Shown here one piece after another: positions 6,239 through 28,445 of a stretch of 28,445 nt of DNA. This stretch comes from a virus: positions 1-28,445 of IMG/VR virus record IMGVR_UViG_3300020183_002263; one strand, given 5' to 3'. Numbering within the stretch: position 1 is the first letter of the stretch; the number at the start of each line of letters is the position of its first letter. The notes under the pieces were generated by a model. The model saw nothing but the letters and a program-made list of their open reading frames with translations. It was not told the origin of the DNA and ran no database searches. The translations under genes were made by a program, and so were the position numbers.

Positions 6239-6389
6239 CGTGTTCAGAAAAAACGAGGTTGGGGCAGGGATGTTTGACTGCTGTCAGGCTCCCCCTCCCA
6301 GAACTGGCGGTGGTCGTGTTCCTCTATGCCTCCCCGAGTTGAACACCCCCTGCCCCAACACCCTTTGGGAGATGATCTATGGCGATTGA
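6228..6389 (+). CDS. Possible 53-aa ORF between Cys-rich gene and portal
   Basis: An open frame runs from ATG 6228 to TGA 6387-6389. It overlaps the preceding gene and the portal by 11 bases each, filling what would otherwise be a 140-base gap in a very compact region. The product starts MFSDVFRKNEVGAG and contains MFDCC, a proline run and LNTPCPNTLWE. There is a GAGGG 11 bases before the ATG; an internal ATG at 6270 has GGGCAGGG close by. I do not recognise a family. The same bases contain a strong long-range inverted repeat, so the stretch may be RNA structure instead of, or as well as, coding sequence. Confidence 0.45.
   Translation: MFSDVFRKNEVGAGMFDCCQAPPPRTGGGRVPLCLPELNTPCPNTLWEMIYGD
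6258..6359 (+). repeat. 12-bp perfect inverted repeat upstream of portal
   Basis: GTTGGGGCAGGG (6258-6269) is exactly complementary to CCCTGCCCCAAC (6348-6359). After a small internal loop, TGTT can pair with AACA, extending the stem. The 78-base interior could fold further. The 3' arm ends 7 bases before GGGAG (6367-6371), the portal ribosome binding site. It could tune portal translation or stabilise mRNA. The pairing is visible; the role is inferred. It lacks a U-tract, so it is not a standard terminator. Confidence 0.6.
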
Positions 6390-8823
6390 ACCTGATGTTG
6401 GCCCCGGTGGCCTGCCTATAGAAGTGGTGCAGCGCCTTGTAGCTGAGGCGCAAAACACGCCTGTGGATCTCATTGATCTGCCTGACAACCCTAACGTGCT
6501 CCAGATGGAAGACGGGAGTGCGATTGTGGGTGATATCATGGACGAAGGTCCCATGATTGACGTGCCGTTTGACGGCAACTTGGCTGATGTGATCGACGAT
6601 GGCGACCTTGGGCGCATTGCGTCTGAGTTGGTTGGCCGGATTGAGGACGATTTGGCGTCTCGTGAGGAGTGGGAAGAGACGTATCGCGAAGGTCTGAACT
6701 ATTTGGGCATGAAGTATGAAGAGCGCACGGAGCCTTTTGAGGGGTCGAGTGGCGTTGTTCACCCTGTTCTGGCCGAGTCTGTGACGCAGTTTCAGGCTCA
6801 GGCATACAGGGAGTTGCTTCCTGCTGGCGGTCCCGTGCGTGTGGACGTGGTAGGGGCTCAAAACGAGCAGCTTATGAAGCAGGCTGAGCGCGTCAAGGAG
6901 TACATGAACTACCAGATCACCTACGAGATGGAGGAGTATGATCCTGAGATGGATCAGATGCTCTTTTATCTGCCGATTGTGGGATCGACGTTCAAAAAAG
7001 TATACTTCGACCCGCTCAAGAACCGCGCGATGAGCAAGTTTGTCCACGCGGAAGACCTGATCGTGCCCTATGGCGCGACGGATTTGGTCACTGCGTCGCG
7101 GATTACGCACCGTATCGTGATGGATGCGAACGAAATCCGCAAACTTCAGCTTGCCGGGTTCTATAAGGACGTGGATCTGCCGACTTCGACCTATCCTGAT
7201 GTGGATATGACGGGGGTAAAGGAGGCTGTGGACGACATTCAGGGCGTTTTGCCGGGTAATGCGTCCACTGACCTTACTATTTACGAGGTTCACACCGATC
7301 TAGATCTCCCCGGCTTCGAAGATATTGACGAAAATGGTGAAGAAACAGGCCTGAAGCTACCTTACATCATCACGATCCTGAAGGAGACCAACAAGGTCCT
7401 CGCGGTGAGGCGGAATTACGAGGAAACTGACCCTCTGCGGCGTCAGAACCAGTATTTCGTCCACTACAAGTTCCTTCCCGGCCTTGGTTTCTACGGCTTG
7501 GGCCTGACGCACATGATTGGTGGCCTTGCAAAGGCCTCCACGTCGCTTCTGAGGCAGCTTATCGACGCTGGAACGCTGTCTAACCTTCCCGGCGGCTTCA
7601 AGGCGAAGGGTGCTCGCATTGCGCAGGACGACTCGCCGATCCAACCCGGTGAGTTCAGGGATATCGACATCCCGAGCGGCGATCTGCGTGGCGCTCTGAT
7701 GCCTCTGCCGTTCAAGGAGCCCTCTGCGACGCTCTATAATCTGCTTGGCACGCTTGTAGATGCTGGGCGGCGCTTTGCGGCCATGGCTGACATGAAGATC
7801 GGCGAAATGGGCGGCGAGACGCCTGTCGGCACGACCATGGCGATCATGGAGCGTGGCACGAAGGTGATGTCGGCCATCCACAAGCGCCTGCATTACTCGC
7901 AGAAGATCGAGTTCAAGCTGCTTGCCCGAATCTTCTCGAAGACGCTTGAGCCCTATCCCTACATACCTTCGACGGAAGTGGGACCGGAGATCAAGGCGTC
8001 CGACTTTGACGGCAGGGTTGATGTTCTGCCGGTCAGCGACCCGAACATCTTTTCGATGGCGCAACGGATCGCTCTGGCGCAAACGCAGTTGCAGCTTGTG
8101 CAGTCCAATCCGCAGATTCATGGGGGTCCGCAGGGCCTCTACATGGCCTACAGGAAGATGTACGAGGCGCTTGGCGTCAGCAACATCGACTCGATCCTTC
8201 CGCCTCCTCCGAGGCCGCAGCCGATGAACCCGGCGAAGGAGAATCAGATGGCGCTTCAGGGTGGGATGCTTCAAGCGTTCCCGCAACAGGACCATCAGGC
8301 CCACATGGCGGCGCATTTGGCGATGATGTCCACGCCTGCCGCTCAGATTAACCCGGCTGTGGTCGCGTCTTTGCAGGGGCACATTCAGGAGCACATTGGG
8401 ATGCTTGCCGAGGGCATCGCGCAACAGCAGGTTCTGTCGAAGTTGCCGCCTGAGATGGCTCAGAACCAGCAGGCTATGCCTATAATCCAAGCCGAGATTG
8501 AGCGCGCTGCGGCAAAGATCATTGCGCAGCTTACGGAGCAGTTCACGCAGTCTGTGACGCCTGCCCAGCAGCAGGATCCGCTTGTGATGATCCGCCAGCA
8601 GGAACTGGCGATCAAGGAACAGCAGATCCAGCAGAATGCGCAGACAGAAGCGATGAAGATGGCCGCGAACGCGGACAAGGAGCGCAACAAGGTGCTCATT
8701 GCTCAGCAGCGCATTGACCAGCAAGATGAGGCGACGCAGGAAAGAGCTAGTGTCGCCCGTGAGCGCATTGACGCGCAGAGGGACATTGCGATGATGAACG
8801 CAAGGATGAGGGGGACACGCTGA
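6379..8823 (+). CDS. Portal protein
   Basis: This 814-residue protein is the dodecameric ring at the capsid vertex through which DNA is packaged and ejected. It resembles the long (P22-like) podovirus portal group. The N-terminal region has REEWEETYREGLNYLG and a GSSGVVHPVLAESVTQFQ segment typical of the family. The stem/wing core spans roughly residues 90-600, with SEYVIPS-like positions replaced by HAEDLIVPYGATD and the conserved PVGTTMAIME helix. The last ~180 residues are Gln/Ala/Met-rich and predicted coiled coil, fitting a helical barrel pointing into the capsid. GGGAG at 6367-6371 supports ATG 6379. It lies downstream of TerL and upstream of the scaffold and capsid genes. I am confident of the function, less so of the exact subfamily. 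Confidence 0.92.
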   Translation: MAIEPDVGPGGLPIEVVQRLVAEAQNTPVDLIDLPDNPNVLQMEDGSAIVGDIMDEGPMIDVPFDGNLADVIDDGDLGRIASELVGRIEDDLASREEWEETYREGLNYLGMKYEERTEPFEGSSGVVHPVLAESVTQFQAQAYRELLPAGGPVRVDVVGAQNEQLMKQAERVKEYMNYQITYEMEEYDPEMDQMLFYLPIVGSTFKKVYFDPLKNRAMSKFVHAEDLIVPYGATDLVTASRITHRIVMDANEIRKLQLAGFYKDVDLPTSTYPDVDMTGVKEAVDDIQGVLPGNASTDLTIYEVHTDLDLPGFEDIDENGEETGLKLPYIITILKETNKVLAVRRNYEETDPLRRQNQYFVHYKFLPGLGFYGLGLTHMIGGLAKASTSLLRQLIDAGTLSNLPGGFKAKGARIAQDDSPIQPGEFRDIDIPSGDLRGALMPLPFKEPSATLYNLLGTLVDAGRRFAAMADMKIGEMGGETPVGTTMAIMERGTKVMSAIHKRLHYSQKIEFKLLARIFSKTLEPYPYIPSTEVGPEIKASDFDGRVDVLPVSDPNIFSMAQRIALAQTQLQLVQSNPQIHGGPQGLYMAYRKMYEALGVSNIDSILPPPPRPQPMNPAKENQMALQGGMLQAFPQQDHQAHMAAHLAMMSTPAAQINPAVVASLQGHIQEHIGMLAEGIAQQQVLSKLPPEMAQNQQAMPIIQAEIERAAAKIIAQLTEQFTQSVTPAQQQDPLVMIRQQELAIKEQQIQQNAQTEAMKMAANADKERNKVLIAQQRIDQQDEATQERASVARERIDAQRDIAMMNARMRGTR

Positions 8824-18453: not shown

Positions 18454-19275
18454 ATGCCGAGTACTTACACGACGAATGGTGGTATCGAGCTTATCGCGAC
18501 AGGCGAACAGTCTGGAACGTGGGGCGATACGACCAACGACAACCTGAACATTATCGACCGCCTTACGAACGGCGTTGGTGCCATCACTCTGTCTGGCACG
18601 ACGCACACGCTAACGACCAGCGATGGCACGCTGTCCGATGGCCAGTATGCGGTGCTCGTGTTTGGTGGAAGCCCGAGTGGCACGAACACAGTCACGATCT
18701 CGCCGAACACAGGTCAGCATCTTTACTTCGTGAAGAACGGGTCAGGTCAGAGCGTGGTTCTGACGCAAGGTTCTGGCGGTAACGTTACTGTCGCAAACGG
18801 CAAGAGTGCGATTGTCTACTCGGACGGCGCTGGGGCTGGCGCTGCTGTCGTTGATGTGACGAACACCTTCAACTTCCAGCCTTTGACGGCCACGCTTACG
18901 GCGATTGGCGCACTGGCTGTGACCGACAGCAACATCATCGTCGGCAATGGCTCGACGTGGGTTGCGGAAAGCGGTACGACGGCACGGACTTCCTTGGGGC
19001 TTGGCACTGGCGACAGTCCGACCTTCACGGCTGTGACGGCTGGTCAGGTCGATATCACGGGAACCGGCGACCTCCGCCTTCAGGACACGACGGGCGGTCA
19101 GTATGTCGCGCTTCAGGCTCCGGGCACTGTCTCTGCCAGCTACACGCTGACGCTGCCTGCTGCGGATGGGACGAGCGGGCAGGCAATCGTGACGGATGGC
19201 GCAGGGGCTTTGAGTTTTGCTGCTGCCGGTATCTCTACAGGTAAAGCTATCGCAATGGCCATCGTTTTCGGGTAA
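18454..19275 (+). CDS. Tail fibre-type protein (273 aa)
   Basis: It starts MPSTYTTNGGIELIATGEQS followed by GTWGDTTNDNLNIIDRLTNG, an N-terminus I recall on many marine phage tail fibre proteins. The middle is beta-rich with HLYFVKNGSGQSVVLTQGSG and VANGKSAIVYSDG. The C-terminal half has GDLRLQDTTGGQYVALQAPG and YTLTLPAADGTSGQAIVTDG, typical of trimeric fibre shafts. It ends in a short hydrophobic tail. A TAGGGTC box precedes the start. It is followed by a small accessory gene and the RCC1 genes, so it probably belongs to the host-recognition apparatus. Confidence 0.82.
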   Translation: MPSTYTTNGGIELIATGEQSGTWGDTTNDNLNIIDRLTNGVGAITLSGTTHTLTTSDGTLSDGQYAVLVFGGSPSGTNTVTISPNTGQHLYFVKNGSGQSVVLTQGSGGNVTVANGKSAIVYSDGAGAGAAVVDVTNTFNFQPLTATLTAIGALAVTDSNIIVGNGSTWVAESGTTARTSLGLGTGDSPTFTAVTAGQVDITGTGDLRLQDTTGGQYVALQAPGTVSASYTLTLPAADGTSGQAIVTDGAGALSFAAAGISTGKAIAMAIVFG

Positions 19276-19677: not shown

Positions 19678-21108
19678 ATGGCTCGCACACCCGGCGGGAC
19701 GCTCAGTGCCTTCACGCTTCTCAGCACTCCTGACGAACCGACGATCACGTCTGTCACGACGAGCATAGGCTCGGCGTCCGTTGCCTTTACTGCGCCGACT
19801 GATGTTGGCGATGCGGCTGTGTCGTCCTATGTGGTGACGGCTGTTGACGAGAGCAGCGGCGCTTCGACGGGGGCTACGGGGTCTGCTTCGCCGATCACGG
19901 TGACGCCTCCTGCTGGCGGCACGTTCAAGATCAGGATGCAGGCGCTGAACGCCTACGGGCCGGGGCGGCTGACGGAGTATGATACGGGGAACGAGATTTA
20001 CTCTGGGGCGCAGTTGTGGGCTTGGGGTGACAACAAAGATTTTGGCGTGCTCGGCGATAATACGGTCATCAACAGATCAAGCCCAGTTCAGATTGGGGCT
20101 CTTACTACTTGGAAGCAAACAACGTCTGGCCCTAGGGCTGCCGCAGCCATAAAAACTGACGGCACTATGTGGGTGTGGGGAATAAACTCTCAAGGCCAAG
20201 TGGGTGATGGCACTGTCGTCCATCGCTCCAGCCCAGTTCAGATTGGGGCTCTTACTACTTGGTCTCAAGTTTCTGCTGGCCTTAATTTTTGTTCAGCAGT
20301 AAAAACAGATAGTTCTTTGTGGTCTTGGGGAGGGAACCAAGCTGGCCAACTCGGCACCGGCACTGTCGTCTACCGCTCCAGCCCAGTTCAGATTGGGGCT
20401 CTTACTACTTGGTCTCAAGTAGCAACTGGATTTCATTGTGCCGCCGTAAAAATTGATGGAACACTTTGGACATGGGGTTTCAACGACAAAGGGCAACTTG
20501 GAAGCAACACAATTGTTGCACGCTCAAGCCCAGTTCAAGTAGGTTCTTTAACTACATGGGCCAGAGTGGCGTGTGGCAACTATCATACCATAGCCGTTAA
20601 AAATGATGGAACCATGTGGTCTTGGGGTCAAAATAATTACGGGCAACTAGCCGATAATACAGCGATAAACAGATCAAGTCCTGTTCAAGTTGGGGCATTA
20701 ACAAGTTGGTACAAGATAGCTTCCGGAGAGAGGCACAATGCGTCTGTCAAAACAGATGGAACTTTGTGGATGTGGGGAAGCAACAGTAGGGGTCAAATTG
20801 GTGTTTTAACTGTTTCTGTTGGAGCCAAGGTCTCAAGCCCTGTTCAGGTTGGTAGCCTCACCGATTGGCTGCAAGGCGCTTGTGCTGGATCTTTTTCAGC
20901 AGCAATTAGAACAAACGGCACTTTGTGGACATGGGGCTACAACAACAGAGGCCAACTTGGTCAAAACGATATATCTATTGGTGGAGATGGAGCACTTCGG
21001 TCTAGCCCCGTACAAGTTGGCGCGCTTACTGAGTGGGCTTTTGTTGCGATTGGTTCCGAATCTGCAACATCTGGGGGTCAAGTTTTTGCCCTCTACGGAG
21101 TAGTCTAG
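19678..21108 (+). CDS. FN3 plus seven-bladed RCC1 propeller protein A (476 aa)
   Basis: Residues ~17-105 form a fibronectin type III-like domain (TSIGSASVAFTAPTDVGDAA, then FKIRMQALNAYGPG). From ~112 to the end there are exactly seven RCC1-like repeats, each with a (L/M)W.WG...GQLG core and a SSPVQ(I/V)G.LT.W strand. Blade starts include nt 20014, 20167 and 20317; most units are 150 bp, one is 153. Seven blades make one closed beta-propeller. Three consecutive units share an identical 33-bp block (20080, 20230, 20380). It follows fibre genes and precedes a second RCC1 gene, so a virion surface or receptor-binding role is likely. RCC1 propellers elsewhere bind proteins or chromatin; that activity is not implied here. 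Confidence 0.88.
   Translation: MARTPGGTLSAFTLLSTPDEPTITSVTTSIGSASVAFTAPTDVGDAAVSSYVVTAVDESSGASTGATGSASPITVTPPAGGTFKIRMQALNAYGPGRLTEYDTGNEIYSGAQLWAWGDNKDFGVLGDNTVINRSSPVQIGALTTWKQTTSGPRAAAAIKTDGTMWVWGINSQGQVGDGTVVHRSSPVQIGALTTWSQVSAGLNFCSAVKTDSSLWSWGGNQAGQLGTGTVVYRSSPVQIGALTTWSQVATGFHCAAVKIDGTLWTWGFNDKGQLGSNTIVARSSPVQVGSLTTWARVACGNYHTIAVKNDGTMWSWGQNNYGQLADNTAINRSSPVQVGALTSWYKIASGERHNASVKTDGTLWMWGSNSRGQIGVLTVSVGAKVSSPVQVGSLTDWLQGACAGSFSAAIRTNGTLWTWGYNNRGQLGQNDISIGGDGALRSSPVQVGALTEWAFVAIGSESATSGGQVFALYGVV
20080..20412 (+). repeat. Identical 33-bp block in three successive RCC1 units
   Basis: The block beginning AGCCCAGTTCAGATTGGGGC and ending in TACTTGG is identical at 20080-20112, 20230-20262 and 20380-20412, exactly 150 bases apart. 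Between the second and third copies identity extends further on both sides. Conserved bases, not just residues, suggest recent unit duplication or gene conversion. Confidence 0.88.
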
Positions 21109-21109
21109 A

Positions 21110-22261
21110 ATGCCTAACTTCAGCGGGGTATGGAATCTGAAGGATCAGGTGCAGGCCATCGCTGCGGGGCGGTGGACGGGGGTGCCGCTGTATGAGCTGT
21201 ATGCGTGGGGCCGCAACAGTGAAGGACAACTTGGTCAAAATAACGTGGTTGTTCGCTCAAGTCCGGTACAGGTTGGCGAGCTGACCAATTGGTCTGAAAT
21301 AGCGGCGGGTGTCGCGCATACGGCTGCCGTTAAAACGGATGGAACTCTTTGGGCGTGGGGCCGTGGCAACAGTGGTCAAATTGGCGACAACACTGTTATT
21401 CCTAGATCTAGTCCAGTACAGATTGGCGCACTGACGAGCTGGTATGAAGTAGCGGCAGGCAACGATCACACTGCGGCAATTAAAACCGACGGCACAATGT
21501 GGACTTGGGGCTTAAACAACAGAGGTCAACTCGGCGACGGCACTCGCGTCTACCGCTCCAGCCCTGTCCAGATTGGCGCTTTGACCAACTGGTCGCAAGT
21601 TTCGGCGGGCGACGTGTTCACTGCGGCAGTTAAAACTGACGGCACTCTGTGGACTTGGGGCGATAACGGCTTCGGCCAACTCGGCGACGGCACTGTTGTC
21701 AACCGCTCCAGCCCTGTTCAAGTCGGCGCGTTAACGACATGGTCTCAGGTATCTAGCGGAGGAGAACACTGCGCCGCGTTTAAGGCCAACGGAACAATTT
21801 GGGCATGGGGCAAAAACGGAGATGGCCAAGTCGGCGATGGTACGGCCATCAACCGTTCCAGCCCCGTTCAAGTCGGCGCGTTAACGACATGGTCTGAAAT
21901 ATCCACTGGTAATGTTCACACCGTTGCTAGGAAAACAACAGGTGAGCTTTACGCTTGGGGCGACAATAGCCCTCACGGCCAACTCGGCGACGGCACAATC
22001 GTTAACAAATCAAGCCCTGTCCAAGTCGGCGCGCTGACGACATGGGCTCAGGTTTCAGCGGGATTTATTCAAACCGCTGCACTCAAGGCCGACGGAACGA
22101 TGTGGGTGTGGGGCTACAATGGAAACGGGCAGATTGGTGACGGCACTACTGTAAGTAAATCCAGTCCCGTGCAAGTCGGCGCTCTGACAAGTTGGTCTAG
22201 TATTGCTCGCGGGTCAAGAGCCCTTCATCTTGTCGCCATCCTCCAAGAAACAACCAACTAA
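21110..22261 (+). CDS. Seven-bladed RCC1 propeller protein B (383 aa)
   Basis: A ~25-residue N-terminal segment (SGVWNLKDQVQAIAAGRWTG) resembles the start of propeller C and is probably a virion anchor. Seven RCC1-like units follow, with cores at nt 21197, 21347, 21497, 21647, 21797, 21947 and 22100: a 150-bp period with one 153-bp step. All seven carry (R/K)SSPVQ. There is no FN3 domain. GGAG lies ~9 bases before ATG 21110, which starts one base after the previous stop. Its stop overlaps the ATG of the sulfotransferase-GT9 gene, so the two are probably co-translated. It is a likely virion receptor or decoration protein. Confidence 0.87.
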   Translation: MPNFSGVWNLKDQVQAIAAGRWTGVPLYELYAWGRNSEGQLGQNNVVVRSSPVQVGELTNWSEIAAGVAHTAAVKTDGTLWAWGRGNSGQIGDNTVIPRSSPVQIGALTSWYEVAAGNDHTAAIKTDGTMWTWGLNNRGQLGDGTRVYRSSPVQIGALTNWSQVSAGDVFTAAVKTDGTLWTWGDNGFGQLGDGTVVNRSSPVQVGALTTWSQVSSGGEHCAAFKANGTIWAWGKNGDGQVGDGTAINRSSPVQVGALTTWSEISTGNVHTVARKTTGELYAWGDNSPHGQLGDGTIVNKSSPVQVGALTTWAQVSAGFIQTAALKADGTMWVWGYNGNGQIGDGTTVSKSSPVQVGALTSWSSIARGSRALHLVAILQETTN

Positions 22262-24078
22262 TGCCCAAAACCTTCCACTTCCTCGCAGGTCTCCCTCGTT
22301 CCGGCAGCACCGTGCTGGCCGCCCTGCTGAACCAGCACCCCGACGTTCACGCCAGCCCCACGAGCGGCATGGGCGAGGTGATGTTCAACACGTTCAAGGC
22401 GTGGCAGGGCAGCAGCGCGGAGCAGGCAGCACCCGACGGCGAGCAGATCAAGCGCGTTCTCCGCAGCATCATGGAGGCGAAGTACGCCCACATCGAGAAG
22501 CCTGTCATCATCGACAAGGCGCGCAACTGGGCAGAGGCTTCCTCGCTGGCCGTGCTGAACGACCTGCTGGGCCGCAAGCCGAAGATCATCGCCACCGTCC
22601 GCAACGTCGAGGACTGCACTTCGTCCTTCGTGCGGATCGTGAAGCCGAATGATCTGGAGACCTTCCTGCGGACGAGCGACCTGATCGACCACCTGAAGAA
22701 GTCGTATCAGGTGCTGAACAGCGGCTACAACGCCGACAAGTCGTGCTTCCTGTTTGTGGAGTATGAAGACCTGCTGGCAGAGCCTGAGAAGCAGATGCGT
22801 CGGATCGAGGAGTTCCTCGGCCTGCCTGCGTTTGAGTATGACCTGCACCACCTCGACGAGACTGCGCCGAAGGAGCGGGACGAGGAAATCTGGCAGGTGC
22901 CGGGGCTGCACGATGTGAAGCCTGAGTTGAAGAAGCAGCACAACCAAGACAGCCGCGACGTTCTGGAGCACATGTACCAGACCTTCGTGCAGCCCTGCTT
23001 CTGGCGCGAGAAGCCGCTGACGACCGAGATGATCCACCCGCTGGACATGCAGTTGGCTGCGGGCATTATTGGCGACTTCGACAGGGGCGAGAAAATTGCT
23101 CAAGAATTAGCAATAAAGGAGCCGAAGAACCACCGCGCGGCGTTCAACCGTGGCTGGTATGAGATGCGCAAGGGCCACCTGCTCGACGGCATGATCCTGC
23201 TGAACAGAGGCCGCATCGAGAAGGTCTTCGGCAACGAGGCACCGAGTGTGCCGACGCCGATCTGGGACGGGGTGAGCACGGGCACGGCGCTCTTGAACCT
23301 TGAGGCTGGCCTCGGCGACCAGATCCACGGTGCGCGGTTCGCGAGGGAACTGAAGAGGCGCGGCAATCAGGTGATCGTGGCGTGTTCTGGGCCGCTGGCG
23401 ATGGTCATGCGGAACACCGAGGGCGTGGACATGGTGATCCAGCACGAGGCTGCCTTTGGCGTCGTGCATGACTTCTGGCTGCCGAGCATGACGGCGAGCA
23501 TTCCGTTTCGGTGGCAGTACCGGGATGTTGACGGCTCGCCCTATGTGCGTCGGCCTGATGTAGCCAAGGGCGACAAGATCCGCATCGGCCTGCGCTGGCA
23601 GGGCAACCCGCAGTTTGAGCACGAGCAGCATCGGCTGTTCCCGCCGCAGTTCATGTTCAACGCGGTGAAGGGGCTTGATGTGGAGTATGTGAGCCTGCAA
23701 CGTGATGCTGGGTCTGAGCAGCGTCCGTCGTGGGTGCGGGAGGTCGATCTTTCGCATTGGGCTGCGACTGCGATGGCTGTTGCATCCTGCGATCTTGTGA
23801 TAACGTCATGCACATCGGTGGCGCACTTGGCTGGTGCGATGGGCGTGCCGACGTGGATCGTGGTTCCGGTTCTGCCGTACTATCTGTGGGCCAAGCCGGG
23901 TAACTTGACTGAGTGGTACGACAGCGTCAGGCTGTTCCGGCAGAAGGGACATGGAGACTGGGCATCGGTCTTCAGTGAGGTGAAAAAGGAGTTGCACCAT
24001 GCCTACGAAAGCGGGCTTCTGGATTCGGGTCAAGAATGGTCAGGTCACCGACGTGTGGGACTACAGGCCGTCGGATGA
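22261..24078 (+). CDS. Sulfotransferase-GT9 (heptosyltransferase-like) fusion (605 aa)
   Basis: Residues 1-~250 are a PAPS-dependent sulfotransferase: 5'-PSB loop GLPRSGST (10-17), a 3'-phosphate region RNVEDCTSSF (114-123), and a typical VEYEDLLAEPEKQMRRIEEF tail. Residues ~260-325 look like TPR helices. Residues ~340-575 are a GT-B glycosyltransferase of the GT9/heptosyltransferase kind: GLGDQIHGARFARELKRRG, RIGLRWQGNP, and the nucleotide-sugar motif SCTSVAHLAGAMGVPTWIVV. The gene would transfer sulfate and a heptose-like sugar to an unknown acceptor. Residues 580-605 are out-of-frame readthrough of the next gene, so the domain probably ended near 578 originally. It overlaps the RCC1-B stop. 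GC and C-ending codons rise from here on. Confidence 0.85.
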   Translation: MPKTFHFLAGLPRSGSTVLAALLNQHPDVHASPTSGMGEVMFNTFKAWQGSSAEQAAPDGEQIKRVLRSIMEAKYAHIEKPVIIDKARNWAEASSLAVLNDLLGRKPKIIATVRNVEDCTSSFVRIVKPNDLETFLRTSDLIDHLKKSYQVLNSGYNADKSCFLFVEYEDLLAEPEKQMRRIEEFLGLPAFEYDLHHLDETAPKERDEEIWQVPGLHDVKPELKKQHNQDSRDVLEHMYQTFVQPCFWREKPLTTEMIHPLDMQLAAGIIGDFDRGEKIAQELAIKEPKNHRAAFNRGWYEMRKGHLLDGMILLNRGRIEKVFGNEAPSVPTPIWDGVSTGTALLNLEAGLGDQIHGARFARELKRRGNQVIVACSGPLAMVMRNTEGVDMVIQHEAAFGVVHDFWLPSMTASIPFRWQYRDVDGSPYVRRPDVAKGDKIRIGLRWQGNPQFEHEQHRLFPPQFMFNAVKGLDVEYVSLQRDAGSEQRPSWVREVDLSHWAATAMAVASCDLVITSCTSVAHLAGAMGVPTWIVVPVLPYYLWAKPGNLTEWYDSVRLFRQKGHGDWASVFSEVKKELHHAYESGLLDSGQEWSGHRRVGLQAVG

Positions 24079-24424
24079 CAAGCTGGCTAAGGAGCCGGGT
24101 TGGCGCGAGGCCGTCGAGGTCATGCCGGATCTGGTGCCGAACCGCGAGATCGTGACGGCGCATCACTTCGACATTGACGTGACGCCTGCCAAGATTGTGT
24201 GGGGCAAGCGGGCGGTGGAGCCTGAAGAGCGCAAGGACGGTCTGCGGGCGCAGGCCAAGGCGGCGTTCAAGGCTGTGGTTGATGCTGAGGTGGCCAAGGA
24301 GACCGACCAGTATCCCGACACGCAGTACGACGCTGCGGTGGTCGATGCTGCTCGTGTTGTCTTCGAGGATCGCATGGACGCCATCGACGCCGCCGTGACG
24401 CACGAGGACGTAGACGCGCTCTGA
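23999..24424 (+). CDS. Unknown protein, possible fibre-assembly partner (141 aa)
   Basis: AAGGAG (23985-23990) lies 8 bases before ATG 23999. The product begins MPTKAGFWIRVKNGQVTDVW with WREAVEVMPDLVPNREIVTA, a pattern I associate with proteins near phage fibre genes, and ends in an Ala/Asp/Glu-rich helical half. Its first 80 bases overlap the end of the sulfotransferase-GT9 gene. It sits directly before RCC1-C, where tail-fibre chaperones are often placed. I do not recognise a definite family. Confidence 0.7.
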   Translation: MPTKAGFWIRVKNGQVTDVWDYRPSDDKLAKEPGWREAVEVMPDLVPNREIVTAHHFDIDVTPAKIVWGKRAVEPEERKDGLRAQAKAAFKAVVDAEVAKETDQYPDTQYDAAVVDAARVVFEDRMDAIDAAVTHEDVDAL

Positions 24425-24438
24425 CGGAGTAGACTCCT

Positions 24439-25647
24439 ATGGCCGAACGCTACCCCGGCGGGGTCATCAGCAAGACGCCTCCGACTGTGACGCCTCCCGT
24501 TGACGGCGAGGGCGGCTCTGCGTCTGGTGTGTGGACGCTCGACACCGTGCTGGAGTACGAGAAGGCGGGGGCTTGGCCGAAAGCGCCGCTGCCGAGGGAG
24601 TTGTATGCGTGGGGTAGCAACGGCAACGGCCAACTTGGCATCGGCACTACCGTCAACCGCTCCAGCCCTGTTCAGGTTGGCGCGCTGGTCAACTGGTCTC
24701 AAGTTTCTGGGGGTAATGCGTTTAGCGCGGCTATTAAGACTGACGGCACGATGTGGGCATGGGGCCGTAACGGCAACGGCGAAATCGGGGACAACACTCG
24801 CGTCGACCGCTCTAGCCCTGTCCAGATTGGCGCTTTGACTAATTGGTATGAGGTTGCGGGGGGCAACGAACACACCGCCGCCATCAAGACCGACGGCACT
24901 CTGTGGGCTTGGGGCGAAAACGGCGCGGGCCGCCTCGGCGACGGCACTGTCGTCAACCGTTCCAGCCCTGTTCAGATCGGCGCATTGACTAATTGGTCGC
25001 AGGTTGCGGCGGGCGAAAACCACACCGCCTCTATCAAGACCGATGGCACTCTGTGGGCTTGGGGTTCCAACACCGTTGGCCAACTTGGCGACAACACTCG
25101 CGTCAGCCGCTCCAGCCCTGTCCAGATAGGTGCTCTTACTAACTGGGCGCAGGTTTCTGCCGAGATTCTTGTCAACGCTGCTGTTAAAACGGATGGAACT
25201 CTTTGGGCTTGGGGTTATAATAGCTACGGCCAACTCGGCGACGGCACTCAAGTCAACCGCTCCAGCCCTGTCCAGATTGGCGCATTGACAAATTGGTCGC
25301 AGGTTGCGGCGGGCCGCTTCCACACAGCCTCCATCAAGACCGACGGCACGATGTGGGCTTGGGGCGGCAACGCAGAAGGCCAACTCGGCACCGGCACAGC
25401 CGTTAACCGCTCCAGCCCTGTTCAGATTGGTGCTCTAACTAACTGGTCTCAGGTTGCGGGGGGCAACAAATTCACCACCTCCATCAAAACCGACGGCACG
25501 ATGTGGGCTTGGGGCGACAACACCCAAGGCGAACTCGGCGACGGCACTGTCGTCCGCCGCTCAAGCCCTGTCCAGATCGGCGCTCTAACTACTTGGTCGC
25601 AGGTTGCGGCGGGCAGTGCTTTCACCGCCGCCATCACCAAAGGCTAA
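24439..25647 (+). CDS. Seven-bladed RCC1 propeller protein C (402 aa)
   Basis: An N-terminal region (MAERYPGGVISKTPPTVTPP, then SGVWTLDTVLEYEKAGAWP) precedes seven RCC1-like units. Unit cores begin at 24601, 24751, 24901, 25051, 25201, 25351 and 25501, exactly 150 bases apart with no exceptions. Every unit has (N/D/S/R)RSSPVQ(I/V)GAL. The SGVW-L...PL-ELYAWG anchor is shared with protein B, so B and C are paralogues. GGAG lies 9 bases upstream of ATG 24439. The very regular DNA period, with many identical codons between blades, suggests homogenisation by recombination. As for A and B, a virion surface role is inferred. Confidence 0.88.
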   Translation: MAERYPGGVISKTPPTVTPPVDGEGGSASGVWTLDTVLEYEKAGAWPKAPLPRELYAWGSNGNGQLGIGTTVNRSSPVQVGALVNWSQVSGGNAFSAAIKTDGTMWAWGRNGNGEIGDNTRVDRSSPVQIGALTNWYEVAGGNEHTAAIKTDGTLWAWGENGAGRLGDGTVVNRSSPVQIGALTNWSQVAAGENHTASIKTDGTLWAWGSNTVGQLGDNTRVSRSSPVQIGALTNWAQVSAEILVNAAVKTDGTLWAWGYNSYGQLGDGTQVNRSSPVQIGALTNWSQVAAGRFHTASIKTDGTMWAWGGNAEGQLGTGTAVNRSSPVQIGALTNWSQVAGGNKFTTSIKTDGTMWAWGDNTQGELGDGTVVRRSSPVQIGALTTWSQVAAGSAFTAAITKG

Positions 25648-25650: not shown

Positions 25651-26352
25651 GTGCATTCCCTCAACTACAGCTACAACCAGACCGTTTCCAAAGCCTACAT
25701 CATCCGCATCCCCGACCACGAGAGGTCAGCACAGAAGGCCAAGAGAGCAGCCGACAGTTGCGATCTGGCGGGGATGGGGTGGGAATATTGGGACGCCTAC
25801 GACGGCATCCAGAACCCGATCAAGCCGCCTAGCCACCATAATGGCATCCCCGCGATGGTCAAGGTGACCGACCACTACCTGACGCGCGGGGAGGTGGCCT
25901 GCGCTCTGAGCCACATCAGCCTGTGGCAGAAGTGTGTGCTCGACGATCAGCCGCTGGTGGTGCTGGAGCATGACGCGATTATGGTGCAAGCCTACACGCA
26001 CCACGCGGTGTTCAACTCGATCTGCTACCTCGGCAGCAACGAACAGGTGAACCAAGGTTGGCAAGTCTTGCCCACACCTCCTCATGCCAGCGAGGGCCCG
26101 AACTACCACTTCATCTGCCGAGCACACAGCTACGCCATCGACCCGGCGGTGGCCAAGAACATGCTTGCCCATGTGCTCAAGTACGGCATCAGCGCGCCGC
26201 TCGACATCATGCTGCGGGCTGACATTTTCCCCATCCACCAGATGGGCATCTACGCCTACAACGGCTGGGAAGGCGACATGAAGGACACGACGATCCTCGG
26301 TCGCCCGCTCGAAGGACGCACGACGAAGCGCAACGACGACCTCTCATGCTAG
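25651..26352 (+). CDS. GT25-family glycosyltransferase, GTG start (233 aa)
   Basis: The start is GTG 25651 with AAAGG (25639-25643) upstream; there is no in-frame ATG nearby. The motifs are [30 protein letters not shown], the family signature [20 protein letters not shown], and [10 protein letters not shown] where other GT25 enzymes have LEDDA. The acidic-residue motif is thus EHD instead of EDD, which could alter metal binding. [15 protein letters not shown] segment and an [10 protein letters not shown] segment complete the fold. GT25 enzymes usually add hexoses to LPS core or capsular glycans. It overlaps the next gene by 7 bases and belongs to the sugar cassette. Confidence 0.82.
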
Positions 26353-26798
26353 TCTTCACCAACGGGTGCTTCGACATCCTGCACGCGGGCCATGTCGCGT
26401 ACCTTGAACAGTCCCGCGCGTTAGGAAAGTATCTGGTCGTTGGCTTGAATAGCGATGCCTCCGTGCGTCGACTGAAGGGGGGCACCCGCCCCATCAACAG
26501 CCAAGAGGATCGCAAGCGCGTACTGCTCGCCCTGCGCGCCGTGGACGCGGTCTACATTTTCGACGAGGACACGCCATACGGGCTTATCAAGCGCGTGAAG
26601 CCTGATATTATCACGAAGGGGGGAGACTACAGGGAGCAGGAGGTCGTGGGGCACGATCTCGCGAAGGTCGTCATCCTCCCCTATGTCGATGGCAAATCAA
26701 CAACGGGAGTCATCAATGCGTGTGGTGGAGAAGGGCTGGGGCCACGAGCTGATCTGGTCGGACGAGGACGAGTACTGTGGGAAGGACTTGGTCTTTAA
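26346..26798 (+). CDS. hldE (C-terminal domain): HldE adenylyltransferase domain (heptose-1-P nucleotidyltransferase)
   Basis: The cytidylyltransferase-like signature is [20 protein letters not shown], with the HxGH motif at 13-16. Later motifs are [58 protein letters not shown] and DGKSTTGVI. This is the RfaE2/HldE C-terminal domain, which adenylates D-glycero-D-manno-heptose 1-phosphate to ADP-heptose. The family normally ends a few residues after STTxII; here the frame runs 83 bases into the next gene, adding ~30 unrelated residues ([13 protein letters not shown] onward). No ribosome binding site is obvious; coupling to the GT25 stop is likely. The kinase half is a separate gene downstream. 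Confidence 0.88.
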
Positions 26799-27060
26799 GA
26801 AGGGCGGCAGGTGCTCGATGCACTTCCACGCCAAGAAGACCGAGACGTGGATAGTGAGATCGGGTGCCTTCGAGGTGCGCTGGATCGAGACCAAGACGGC
26901 AAAGATCCAGACCATGAGCCTGATGCCGGGTGCCGTGTGGCACAACCCGCGCTTCTCGCCGCACCAGTTGATCTGTCTGGAGGCTGGCACGGTGTCCGAG
27001 GTCTCGACCCACGACGACCCGACCGACAACTACCGCGTCCTGCCGGGTGATGGGCAATGA
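26716..27060 (+). CDS. Cupin-fold sugar-phosphate isomerase-like protein (114 aa)
   Basis: The start is ATG 26716 with GGGAG (26705-26709) 6 bases before; an upstream in-frame ATG at 26683 has no such site. Motifs are [59 protein letters not shown] and [16 protein letters not shown]. These match the small cupin domain of mannose-6-phosphate isomerase type II and related dTDP-sugar enzymes; the metal ligands would be the His pair of HFH, the nearby Glu and the later His. It lies between the two HldE halves, so it may adjust a heptose or related sugar; the substrate is unknown. It overlaps the upstream gene by 83 bases and the downstream one by 4. Confidence 0.75.
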
Positions 27061-27797
27061 GGTTTCTGGTCATCGGGGACGCCTGCCACGATGTCTACAA
27101 GTACGGCACCATCAAGCGGCTGAACCCCGAGGCGTCGGCCCCGCTGCTGTCGATGCACAGCACGGAGATCCGCGCCGGCATGGCGCTGAACGTGGCTGCT
27201 AACCTCAAGGCCTTCAACGTGGACATAATGACCGAGGTGCCGAAGAACGGAGCCTCGTTCAAGACCCGCTACATTGACGAGAAGAGCGGGCAGCAACTGC
27301 TGCGGGTGGACGAAGACAACGTGCCCGACAAGGTATGGAAGGACGTGCAATCCTACAACCCGGACGACTTCGACGCGGTGGTCGTCTCGGACTACAACAA
27401 GGGCTTCCTGACCGACAACGACATCGCCCAACTGTCGCGCTTCAAGCACTGCTACATTGACACGAAGAAGCGGAACCTAGGCGGTCTGGGGCCTGCGTGG
27501 TTCAAGATCAACGCTGCGGAAGAGGCGGCGCTTTTGTCGCAGCCTGACAACCTCGTCGTAACGCTGGGGGCTGACGGTGCGCGGCACAACGGCAAGATTG
27601 TTTCGCCGTTCATGTCTCCCGTTGATGTGGTGGATGTCTGCGGCGCGGGCGACACGTTCCTCGCGGCCTTTGCCTTTGCCATGACGAGCGGGTGCCGTGT
27701 GTCGCGCTCAATGGCCTACGCCAACAGTTGTGCCGCGATCACCTGCACGAAGATCGGGACATACGCTCTACATCCGCAAGAAGTGCCGACGCTATGA
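27057..27797 (+). CDS. hldE (N-terminal domain): HldE-type kinase domain (PfkB family)
   Basis: The protein follows the RfaE1/HldE kinase domain: RLNPEASAPLLSMHSTEIRA in place of LNPEAPVPV...EIRLGGAANVA, VVVSDYNKGFL, YIDTKKRNLG, VVTLGADGARHNG and the PfkB C-terminal signature DVCGAGDTFLAAFAFA with catalytic Asp199. It would phosphorylate heptose 7-phosphate at C1, making the bisphosphate. At 246 residues it is clearly shorter than the ~300+ residues of bacterial kinase domains; the lid region around residue 55-80 is compact. It overlaps the cupin gene and the epimerase gene by four bases each (ATGA). Confidence 0.86.
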   Translation: MRFLVIGDACHDVYKYGTIKRLNPEASAPLLSMHSTEIRAGMALNVAANLKAFNVDIMTEVPKNGASFKTRYIDEKSGQQLLRVDEDNVPDKVWKDVQSYNPDDFDAVVVSDYNKGFLTDNDIAQLSRFKHCYIDTKKRNLGGLGPAWFKINAAEEAALLSQPDNLVVTLGADGARHNGKIVSPFMSPVDVVDVCGAGDTFLAAFAFAMTSGCRVSRSMAYANSCAAITCTKIGTYALHPQEVPTL

Positions 27798-28445
27798 TCC
27801 TCATAACCGGGCATCGCGGCTTCATTGGCGGCAACATGATGCGCGCGTTCTCGGACACACGGGGCTACGAGTGGGGCGACGGCAAGGTCGATCTCACCGA
27901 CATCTCGCGCGTCATCCACCTCGGTGCGATCACCGACACCCAATGTACCGACTGGAAGCGGCTGGCCGAGCAGAACATCAACTTCACCAAGGAACTCCTA
28001 CACGAGTGCGCCTTGTGTAGGATTCCGATCCAGATCGCATCGACGGCGGCGGTATATGGCACGGGCTCCATATTCCGCGAGGACGCCGCCGTCTTCCCGG
28101 AGAACGACTACGCCGTCTCTAAGCGGATCATCGAACTCTACGCCCTCGACCGCGACTGGCCCATGCCGGTGCAATTGTTCCGCTACTTCAACGTCTACGG
28201 CCCGCACGAGGACAACAAGTCGCAGCCGTCGCCCCACACGCGCTTCCGGCGACAGGCAACAACGTTTGGTCGCATCGAAGTCTTTGAAGGCAGCGAGGAC
28301 ATCAAGCGGGACTTCGTTCCTGTCGAGGAGGTGATCCGCATCCACCGCCGCTTCTTTGACTTACCCCTCACTGGCGTGTATAACCTAGGGACGGGTAAGG
28401 CGACTTCCTTCATGGATGTAGCTAGAGACGTGGCGCAAGAAACCG
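27794..28445 (+). CDS. hldD-like: HldD-like NAD(P)-dependent sugar epimerase, 3'-truncated by window end
   Basis: The frame is open from ATG 27794 to the window edge (217 residues visible). It has the Rossmann start LITGHRGFIGGNM, IHLGAITDT, the SDR catalytic set STAAVYG (Ser/Thr), YAVSK (Tyr106, Lys110), RYFNVYGPHED, IKRDFVPVEEV and GVYNLGTGKATSF. These match ADP-glyceromanno-heptose 6-epimerase (HldD) and related nucleotide-sugar epimerases. The part between the GFIG turn and VIHLGA is short (~30 residues against ~60 in bacterial HldD), so this is a compact form. With the HldE halves upstream it would complete the last step to ADP-L-glycero-D-manno-heptose. The C-terminus is outside the window. 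Confidence 0.84.
   Translation, partial: MILITGHRGFIGGNMMRAFSDTRGYEWGDGKVDLTDISRVIHLGAITDTQCTDWKRLAEQNINFTKELLHECALCRIPIQIASTAAVYGTGSIFREDAAVFPENDYAVSKRIIELYALDRDWPMPVQLFRYFNVYGPHEDNKSQPSPHTRFRRQATTFGRIEVFEGSEDIKRDFVPVEEVIRIHRRFFDLPLTGVYNLGTGKATSFMDVARDVAQET

Follow-up and report, generated by a model that had tools for sequence, protein, structure and literature searches.

What does a phage do with a single protein that joins a sulfotransferase to a glycosyltransferase, and on which molecule would such a protein act? The question is raised by a 28.4 kb virus fragment (IMG/VR record IMGVR_UViG_3300020183_002263; the whole stretch of 28,445 nucleotides is called the window here), whose terminase is nearest to those of phage 023Pt_psg01, Pelagibacter phage HTVC027P and similar phages (59-63% identity). 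One gene in the window encodes an N-terminal sulfotransferase, a segment resembling tetratricopeptide repeats (TPR) and a C-terminal GT-B glycosyltransferase (GT), and it directly follows a gene for an RCC1-repeat β-propeller. We favor the reading, with confidence of about one half, that the product is a two-headed phage enzyme dedicated to glycosylating and sulfating the neighboring RCC1 tail propeller, a virion protein; the confidence is set at this level because adjacency argues strongly for a functional link, not for the partners being enzyme and substrate.

The fused protein was first described in a sequence-only reading of the window as a 605-residue open reading frame containing GLPRSGST, GLGD and SCTSVAHLAGAMG, and all of these are present. 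An AlphaFold model built from 49 aligned relatives has a mean pLDDT (per-residue confidence) of 88.5 and a pTM (predicted template modeling score) of 0.74. IMG/VR was searched with the protein, which gave 73 loci, and with a profile, which gave 230 candidate relatives, of which 80 were kept. Together with prophages and genome hits, near-full-length fusions number 81, of which 61 are unique and span 98-41% identity. The sulfotransferase-glycosyltransferase pairing is therefore real: recurrence in 81 viral or prophage copies rules out an assembly artefact, a chance open reading frame or a misassembly.

The distribution of these copies is that of a phage gene. None of the cultured-phage and plasmid records searched covers 80% of the fusion protein, and matches in the BFVD viral structure library extend over one part of it only (best query TM 0.51). 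In a sample of 615 bacterial genomes (369 belonging to the same class as the Methylocucumis genome and 246 to the same phylum as the Phycisphaerales bin), matches spanning both domains occurred only in phage or prophage copies already known, and whole capture of a bacterial gene was rejected. Genome collections contributed four matches. Two of these (L077 and L078) hold phage tail or RCC1 genes and a third (L076) is a 3 kb contig with RCC1 plus the fusion. The fourth (L075), a contig assigned to the Phycisphaerales bin, encodes a fusion of 92% identity and is likely mis-binned phage sequence, because the phage gene order of the window recurs there. From its distribution in IMG/VR, cultured phages and the bacterial genomes searched, we conclude that the fusion is a phage protein family, environmentally common and absent from the cultured phages searched. 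The suspicion that it might prove both common and characterised is thus half borne out: it is common in environmental phages, and it is uncharacterised as far as the literature could be searched. Searches that paired phage and sulfotransferase with RCC1 or glycosyltransferase returned no relevant paper, most subscription journals lying outside the search.

The fusion is tightly linked to RCC1 genes. Redundancy was removed to leave 47 fusion loci, 46 of them with upstream sequence and 27 with at least 5 kb downstream. In 40 of the 46, the immediate upstream gene encodes an RCC1 protein on the same strand, with a gap of -4 to 114 bp. Among the 27 loci, RCC1 genes are present in 26, GT25-family glycosyltransferase genes in 24 and genes for a protein resembling adenosine 5'-phosphosulfate (APS) kinase in 18; hldE-C and hldE-N heptose genes were found in 4 each. 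A small gene stands downstream beside the fusion in 39/47 loci (25/27 of those with the longer downstream sequence). The APS-kinase-like protein passes PF01583 (28.9 bits against a cut-off of 21.1), and a profile search with it returned APS kinases as best matches (E down to 1e-10); by sequence, it possibly supplies 3'-phosphoadenosine 5'-phosphosulfate (PAPS), the sulfate donor. This P-loop domain, encoded downstream of the fusion at L016:11969-12793 and in 17 other loci, is usually joined to a domain resembling nicotinamide mononucleotide adenylyltransferase. At L053:9728-10534, a standalone second sulfotransferase gene directly follows the fusion gene.

RCC1 pairing is also found where the two enzymes are not fused. 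GT-only relatives begin directly behind RCC1 in L062-L064. The cultured cyanophage S-SRM01 has the order long tail fibre, RCC1, hypothetical, RCC1, TPR-GT and, later, RCC1 followed by a sulfotransferase; in AG-345-E08, RCC1 genes lie close to a TPR-GT, and there is also an RCC1-sulfotransferase pair. In BUCT-ZZ01 (L115:5857-7572), an RCC1/'BNR' gene precedes a TPR-GT whose methyltransferase-like C-terminus (a match to a methyltransferase PHROG) gives the same GT a different partner. A 579-aa TPR-GT of similar length lies directly behind RCC1 at L083:3492-5228. Two genomes in the planctomycete sample have an RCC1 gene overlapping the TPR-GT gene that follows it, within a phage-like region. This persistence of the pairing through GT-only, split and methyltransferase-joined architectures argues for a link between enzyme and RCC1 protein.

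Co-occurrence was also evaluated across phage records. RCC1 is present in 36 of 50,697 records and in 4 of the 5 that hold a GT-half homologue (hypergeometric p=1e-12; 1.3e-9 after merging duplicates). In the reverse direction, a sulfotransferase or GT gene comes next after the last RCC1 gene in 11/11 close RCC1 relatives with sequence beyond it and in 0/6 distant RCC1 loci; the reverse RCC1 search returned no matches when the planctomycete protein was the query. The standalone sulfotransferases and TPR-GTs of S-SKS1, S-SRM01 and AG-345 are homologous to the domains of the fusion and mostly stand beside propeller or tail genes, but are encoded there by separate genes. In S-SKS1 and AG-345-O18 (L117, L118), the sulfotransferases are flanked by kelch-like proteins with YGYFGGG-type repeats, not RCC1, which may be another kind of propeller with the same role; a gene for an HldE-N-like kinase also lies nearby in AG-345-O18. 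On a Paraburkholderia plasmid (L123), a TPR-GT homologue adjoins a hemagglutinin-repeat adhesin gene, a gene order that suggests a similar enzyme-adhesin pairing in bacteria.

The N-terminal half has the features of a PAPS-dependent sulfotransferase. It matches Sulfotransfer_3 (PF13469; E=8.5e-22, 78.9 bits against a cut-off of 27), as do 19/19 relatives, and Sulfotransfer_1 (E=4.1e-14). The closest solved structures by Foldseek are tyrosylprotein sulfotransferases (TPSTs; best 3ap1, E=3e-8), and TPST1/2 share with the fusion the PAPS loop and the Arg/Ser pair. The PAPS-binding residues P12-R13-S14-G15-S16-T17, R114 and S122 are invariant in 61/61 unique sequences, confirming that the loop is intact; K86 is altered once among the 61. 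The fusion of locus L021 (6468-8186) has a shortened sulfotransferase domain and a K86 to Glu change.

The C-terminal half adopts a GT-B fold in the AlphaFold model, and Foldseek matches it to WaaC, WaaF, a GT9 enzyme, TibC and the TPR-bearing OGT and SPY. Against 2h1h, 3tov and 1psw, E-values are 5e-5 to 2e-4 with TM ~0.5 on the target, in agreement with a WaaC/WaaF-type GT-B fold. Foldseek was relied on for these fold matches because searching PDB with a HMMER profile of the GT part returned mostly TPR repeats and no glycosyltransferase. The nearest sequence relatives of the GT half are TPR-containing glycosyltransferases. The TPR signal is weak in the fusion protein alone (TPR_16, E=0.15), with E down to 0.0048 among relatives; a profile built from the GT part plus its N-terminal segment matches designed TPR proteins, and helix pairs are present in the model, as expected for the TPR-like linker proposed earlier. 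Residues E348, G350, G352, D353, Q354, H356, E453 and H522 are invariant in 61/61 unique sequences, and D353 is invariant in bacterial TPR-GTs too. D353 is a candidate catalytic base at the position of the WaaC/TibC Asp, by analogy with TibC Asp-110 (PMC4358343). Loss of catalytic residues from one domain had been raised as a reason to doubt the enzyme; the GT-B Asp and the residues that bind PAPS are both retained.

The label 'GT9-type' given to this half by the sequence-only reading holds for the fold and fails for the family. The fusion protein has no match to Pfam GT9 (PF01075), which is matched by 1 of 19 relatives (E=0.024), and where the GT9 'DTG/DSG' motif (D-T/S-G-x-x-H) has its Asp, 61/61 unique fusions have an invariant Cys, C517. 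In hhalign, C517 falls opposite the GT9 Asp, although the local alignment covers only 30 columns and has 27% probability. An Azospirillum TPR-GT likewise has Cys at this position, and other bacterial TPR-GTs retain Asp. GT9 membership was rejected on these two grounds, and the Cys replacement means that ADP-heptose cannot be predicted as the donor. WaaC and WaaF thus resemble the fusion in overall fold and in a GD-type Asp near the domain N-terminus, whereas the fusion falls below Pfam GT9 detection, lacks the motif Asp and has added TPR and sulfotransferase segments.

A more fitting name for the GT half is TPR-glycosyltransferase, with FlmG-like architecture and a GT9-like fold. In flagellin O-glycosylation by Caulobacter, the TPR domain of FlmG binds flagellin, which the enzyme then glycosylates (PMC7591256). 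Compared by architecture, FlmG-type enzymes and the fusion share TPR followed by a C-terminal GT-B domain in one chain; the fusion differs in its extra N-terminal sulfotransferase, phage origin, very short TPR and an RCC1 partner in place of flagellin. TibC glycosylates a repetitive surface protein, and a four-Cys iron finger is a feature of the TibC/Aah family (PMC4358343). These bacterial autotransporter heptosyltransferases (BAHT) are GT-B proteins related in fold to the fusion, which lacks both the iron finger and the N-terminal β-barrel; the only cysteines in residues 330-605 are C375, C510 and C517, and BAHT membership was rejected because the iron finger is missing. Because the defining features tested fail, we do not claim membership in the TPST, GT9 or TibC families.

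RCC1 proteins have been detected in the particles of some phages. Mass spectrometry detected three in virions of phage W70 (PMC11370258) and one in the GAP32 virion (as reported in PMC5259590), and a role in DNA organisation has been proposed for such proteins by analogy with eukaryotes (PMC7247149). The RCC1 genes sit in the tail region here and in other phages, and from these positions a surface role is favored. As noticed with the window gene at 21110-22261, PHROGs (7220, 4219 and 16766) files phage RCC1 under DNA, RNA and nucleotide metabolism, a category that looks wrong for virion propellers. In a crude look at motifs in the RCC1 repeats, SSP-Q was seen in paired ones, which is not interpretable as acceptor sites.

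In the mechanism that we propose, the TPR segment would hold the RCC1 β-propeller encoded directly upstream, which probably lies exposed at the tail. The GT-B domain would add a first sugar to the propeller, most likely at Ser/Thr, and the sulfotransferase domain would then move sulfate from PAPS onto that sugar or onto the protein. Linked GT25, sugar-nucleotide and methyltransferase genes may extend the glycan, the APS-kinase-like gene of many relatives may keep PAPS supplied, and the donor sugar probably differs between phages. The phage would benefit through receptor binding, shielding or stability. A protein modifier is indicated by the FlmG precedent, the TPST-like sulfotransferase fold, the presence of RCC1 proteins in virions and the APS-kinase-like gene in 18/27 loci.

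Several observations weigh against this reading. RCC1 is not directly upstream in 6/46 loci (L016, L020, L021, L022, L060 and L084). In the first four of these, the upstream protein resembles the product of window gene 18454-19275, and RCC1 lies two genes downstream in three and the contig ends in the fourth; in L083, a close relative of L084, a second TPR-GT comes immediately after RCC1. S-SCSM1 has a standalone sulfotransferase with no propeller nearby, and MW202512, a record with no RCC1 match, has its TPR-GT beside capsid genes. The TPR segment of the fusion is short. The TPST catalytic Glu (Glu99 in TPST2) aligns with P33 of the fusion, a variable position (A/P/S/T) adjoining an invariant T34, and because this Glu is not conserved the sulfate acceptor cannot be named as tyrosine. 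The shortened sulfotransferase domain and K86 change of L021 raise the prospect that activity is possibly being lost there and that sulfation may be dispensable. Finally, adjacency can reflect a shared host-range cassette instead of an enzyme-substrate pair.

The LPS-type (lipopolysaccharide) sugar genes of the cassette also fit a role at the host surface, in which sugar and sulfate would be placed on an envelope glycan of the infected cell, LPS or another, for instance as a block to superinfection. We regard this as unlikely, though it is the best of the alternatives. The window carries HldE-C, HldE-N, HldD-like epimerase and GT25 genes, UDP-galactopyranose mutase and other glycosyltransferases are found near some relatives, and the GT fold resembles WaaC/WaaF. 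However, heptose genes occur in only 4/27 loci, whereas RCC1 occurs in 26/27 and is usually directly adjacent, and the RCC1-GT pair persists after loss of the sulfotransferase. The nearest cultured terminase relatives include Pelagibacter and other aquatic phages, which, if lytic, would gain less from remodeling a doomed cell. The sequence-only reading had placed the product on a virion or in LPS; the tight link to RCC1 tail-region genes favors the virion.

Less probable is that RCC1 proximity has no enzyme-substrate meaning and that the enzyme gene hitch-hikes in a mobile cassette that carries surface and sugar genes of the late region. The region is indeed gene-rich and variable, with glycosyltransferases, methyltransferases and oxygenases that differ between phages. 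The exact order of RCC1 followed by TPR-GT or sulfotransferase is nevertheless found in podovirus-like phages and cyanomyoviruses as well as in Methylococcales prophages and planctomycete phage-like regions; it is missing from distant RCC1 genes.

It is very doubtful that the protein is a GT9 heptosyltransferase plus sulfotransferase making sulfated heptose from the ADP-heptose of neighboring hld genes. Such genes (hldE-C, hldE-N and hldD-like) do lie 2-4 kb downstream in the window, and the fold is like that of WaaC and of the autotransporter heptosyltransferase TibC, but the Pfam and motif results described above speak against it, most fusion loci are without hld genes, and the hld products could serve the GT25 enzyme or the host. 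Sulfated heptose, suggested by the sequence-only reading, is not supported as a general product because ADP-heptose genes are present in only 4 of the 27 comparable loci. Least probable of all is that one half is a remnant and the protein has a single activity, as either a glycosyltransferase or a sulfotransferase: GT-only relatives also pair with RCC1 and the L021 domain is shortened, yet P12-T17, R114, S122, E348, G350, G352 and D353 are unchanged across all 61 unique sequences.

Beyond the fusion itself, we put forward, tentatively and as somewhat improbable, that unrelated phage groups share a virion-decoration module, comprising an RCC1 propeller with its own TPR-GT and sulfotransferase (sometimes fused, often with an APS-kinase-like gene), that would give sulfated glycoprotein tails. 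Such a phage surface was not described in the literature found, and to our knowledge sulfated glycoproteins are unreported on phage virions.

Features of the fusion and its neighborhood are collected in Table 1. A cupin gene lies between the HldE-C-like and HldE-N-like genes of the window. A gene in L011 similar to the window's epimerase matches PF01370 (E=1.9e-27), and Phage_tail_APC is a different gene of L022 in the same region as the small 141-aa gene.

Table 1. Features of the fusion gene and its neighbors (window positions unless a locus is named)
Feature	Position	Strand	Evidence or remark
RCC1-repeat propeller protein	19678..21108	+	RCC1 E=8e-64
RCC1-repeat propeller protein, candidate substrate	21110..22261	+	RCC1 E=2.2e-79; stop overlaps fusion start by one base
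Fusion gene, sulfotransferase - TPR - GT-B glycosyltransferase	22261..24078	+	605 aa, single open frame
Sulfotransferase domain, residues 7-191	22279..22833	+	Sulfotransfer_3 match; fold closest to TPST2
PAPS 5'-phosphosulfate loop GLPRSGST, residues 10-17	22288..22311	+	P12-T17 identical in 61/61 unique members
PAPS 3'-phosphate binding pair R114 and S122	22600..22626	+	Identical in 61/61; aligns with TPST Arg/Ser
TPR-like helical pairs, residues ~260-318	23038..23214	+	Helices in model; TPR profile matches
GT-B glycosyltransferase domain, residues ~342-583	23284..24009	+	AlphaFold model and Foldseek
GLGD motif, residues 350-353, with D353	23308..23319	+	D353 in 61/61
SCTSVAHLAGAMG motif, residues 516-528, with C517	23806..23844	+	C517 at GT9 DTG/DSG Asp position
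Small 141-aa gene overlapping fusion 3' end	23999..24424	+	No Pfam/PHROG match; tail-chaperone-like by position only
Third RCC1-repeat propeller protein	24439..25647	+	RCC1 E=9e-87
GT25-family glycosyltransferase	25651..26352	+	Glyco_transf_25 E=4.7e-15
HldE C-domain-like heptose-1-phosphate adenylyltransferase	26346..26798	+	TIGR02199 173 bits (just under 181.5 cut-off); PHROG 7878 E=9.2e-34
HldE N-domain-like heptose kinase, short form	27057..27797	+	TIGR02198 E=1.7e-33, below cut-off
NAD-dependent epimerase, HldD-like by eye	27794..28445	+	Open frame MILITGHRGFIGG...GVYNLGTGKATSFMDV, cut by window end
RCC1 and TPR-GT, phage-like regions	L141 ~6307-8517; L142 ~6325-8366		Genomes from phylum of Phycisphaerales bin

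Sulfotransferase genes of viruses have been described as auxiliary metabolic genes (e.g., PMC8290583). The gene context described here indicates virion modification instead of auxiliary metabolism, which is a lesson for annotation. With the split forms present in a cyanophage that is in culture, S-SRM01, the question is already accessible to experiment. If the enzyme modifies RCC1 propellers, this would explain both the 'chromosome condensation' genes and the orphan sulfotransferases of phages, and would show how tail proteins acquire charge and sugars that may affect adsorption.

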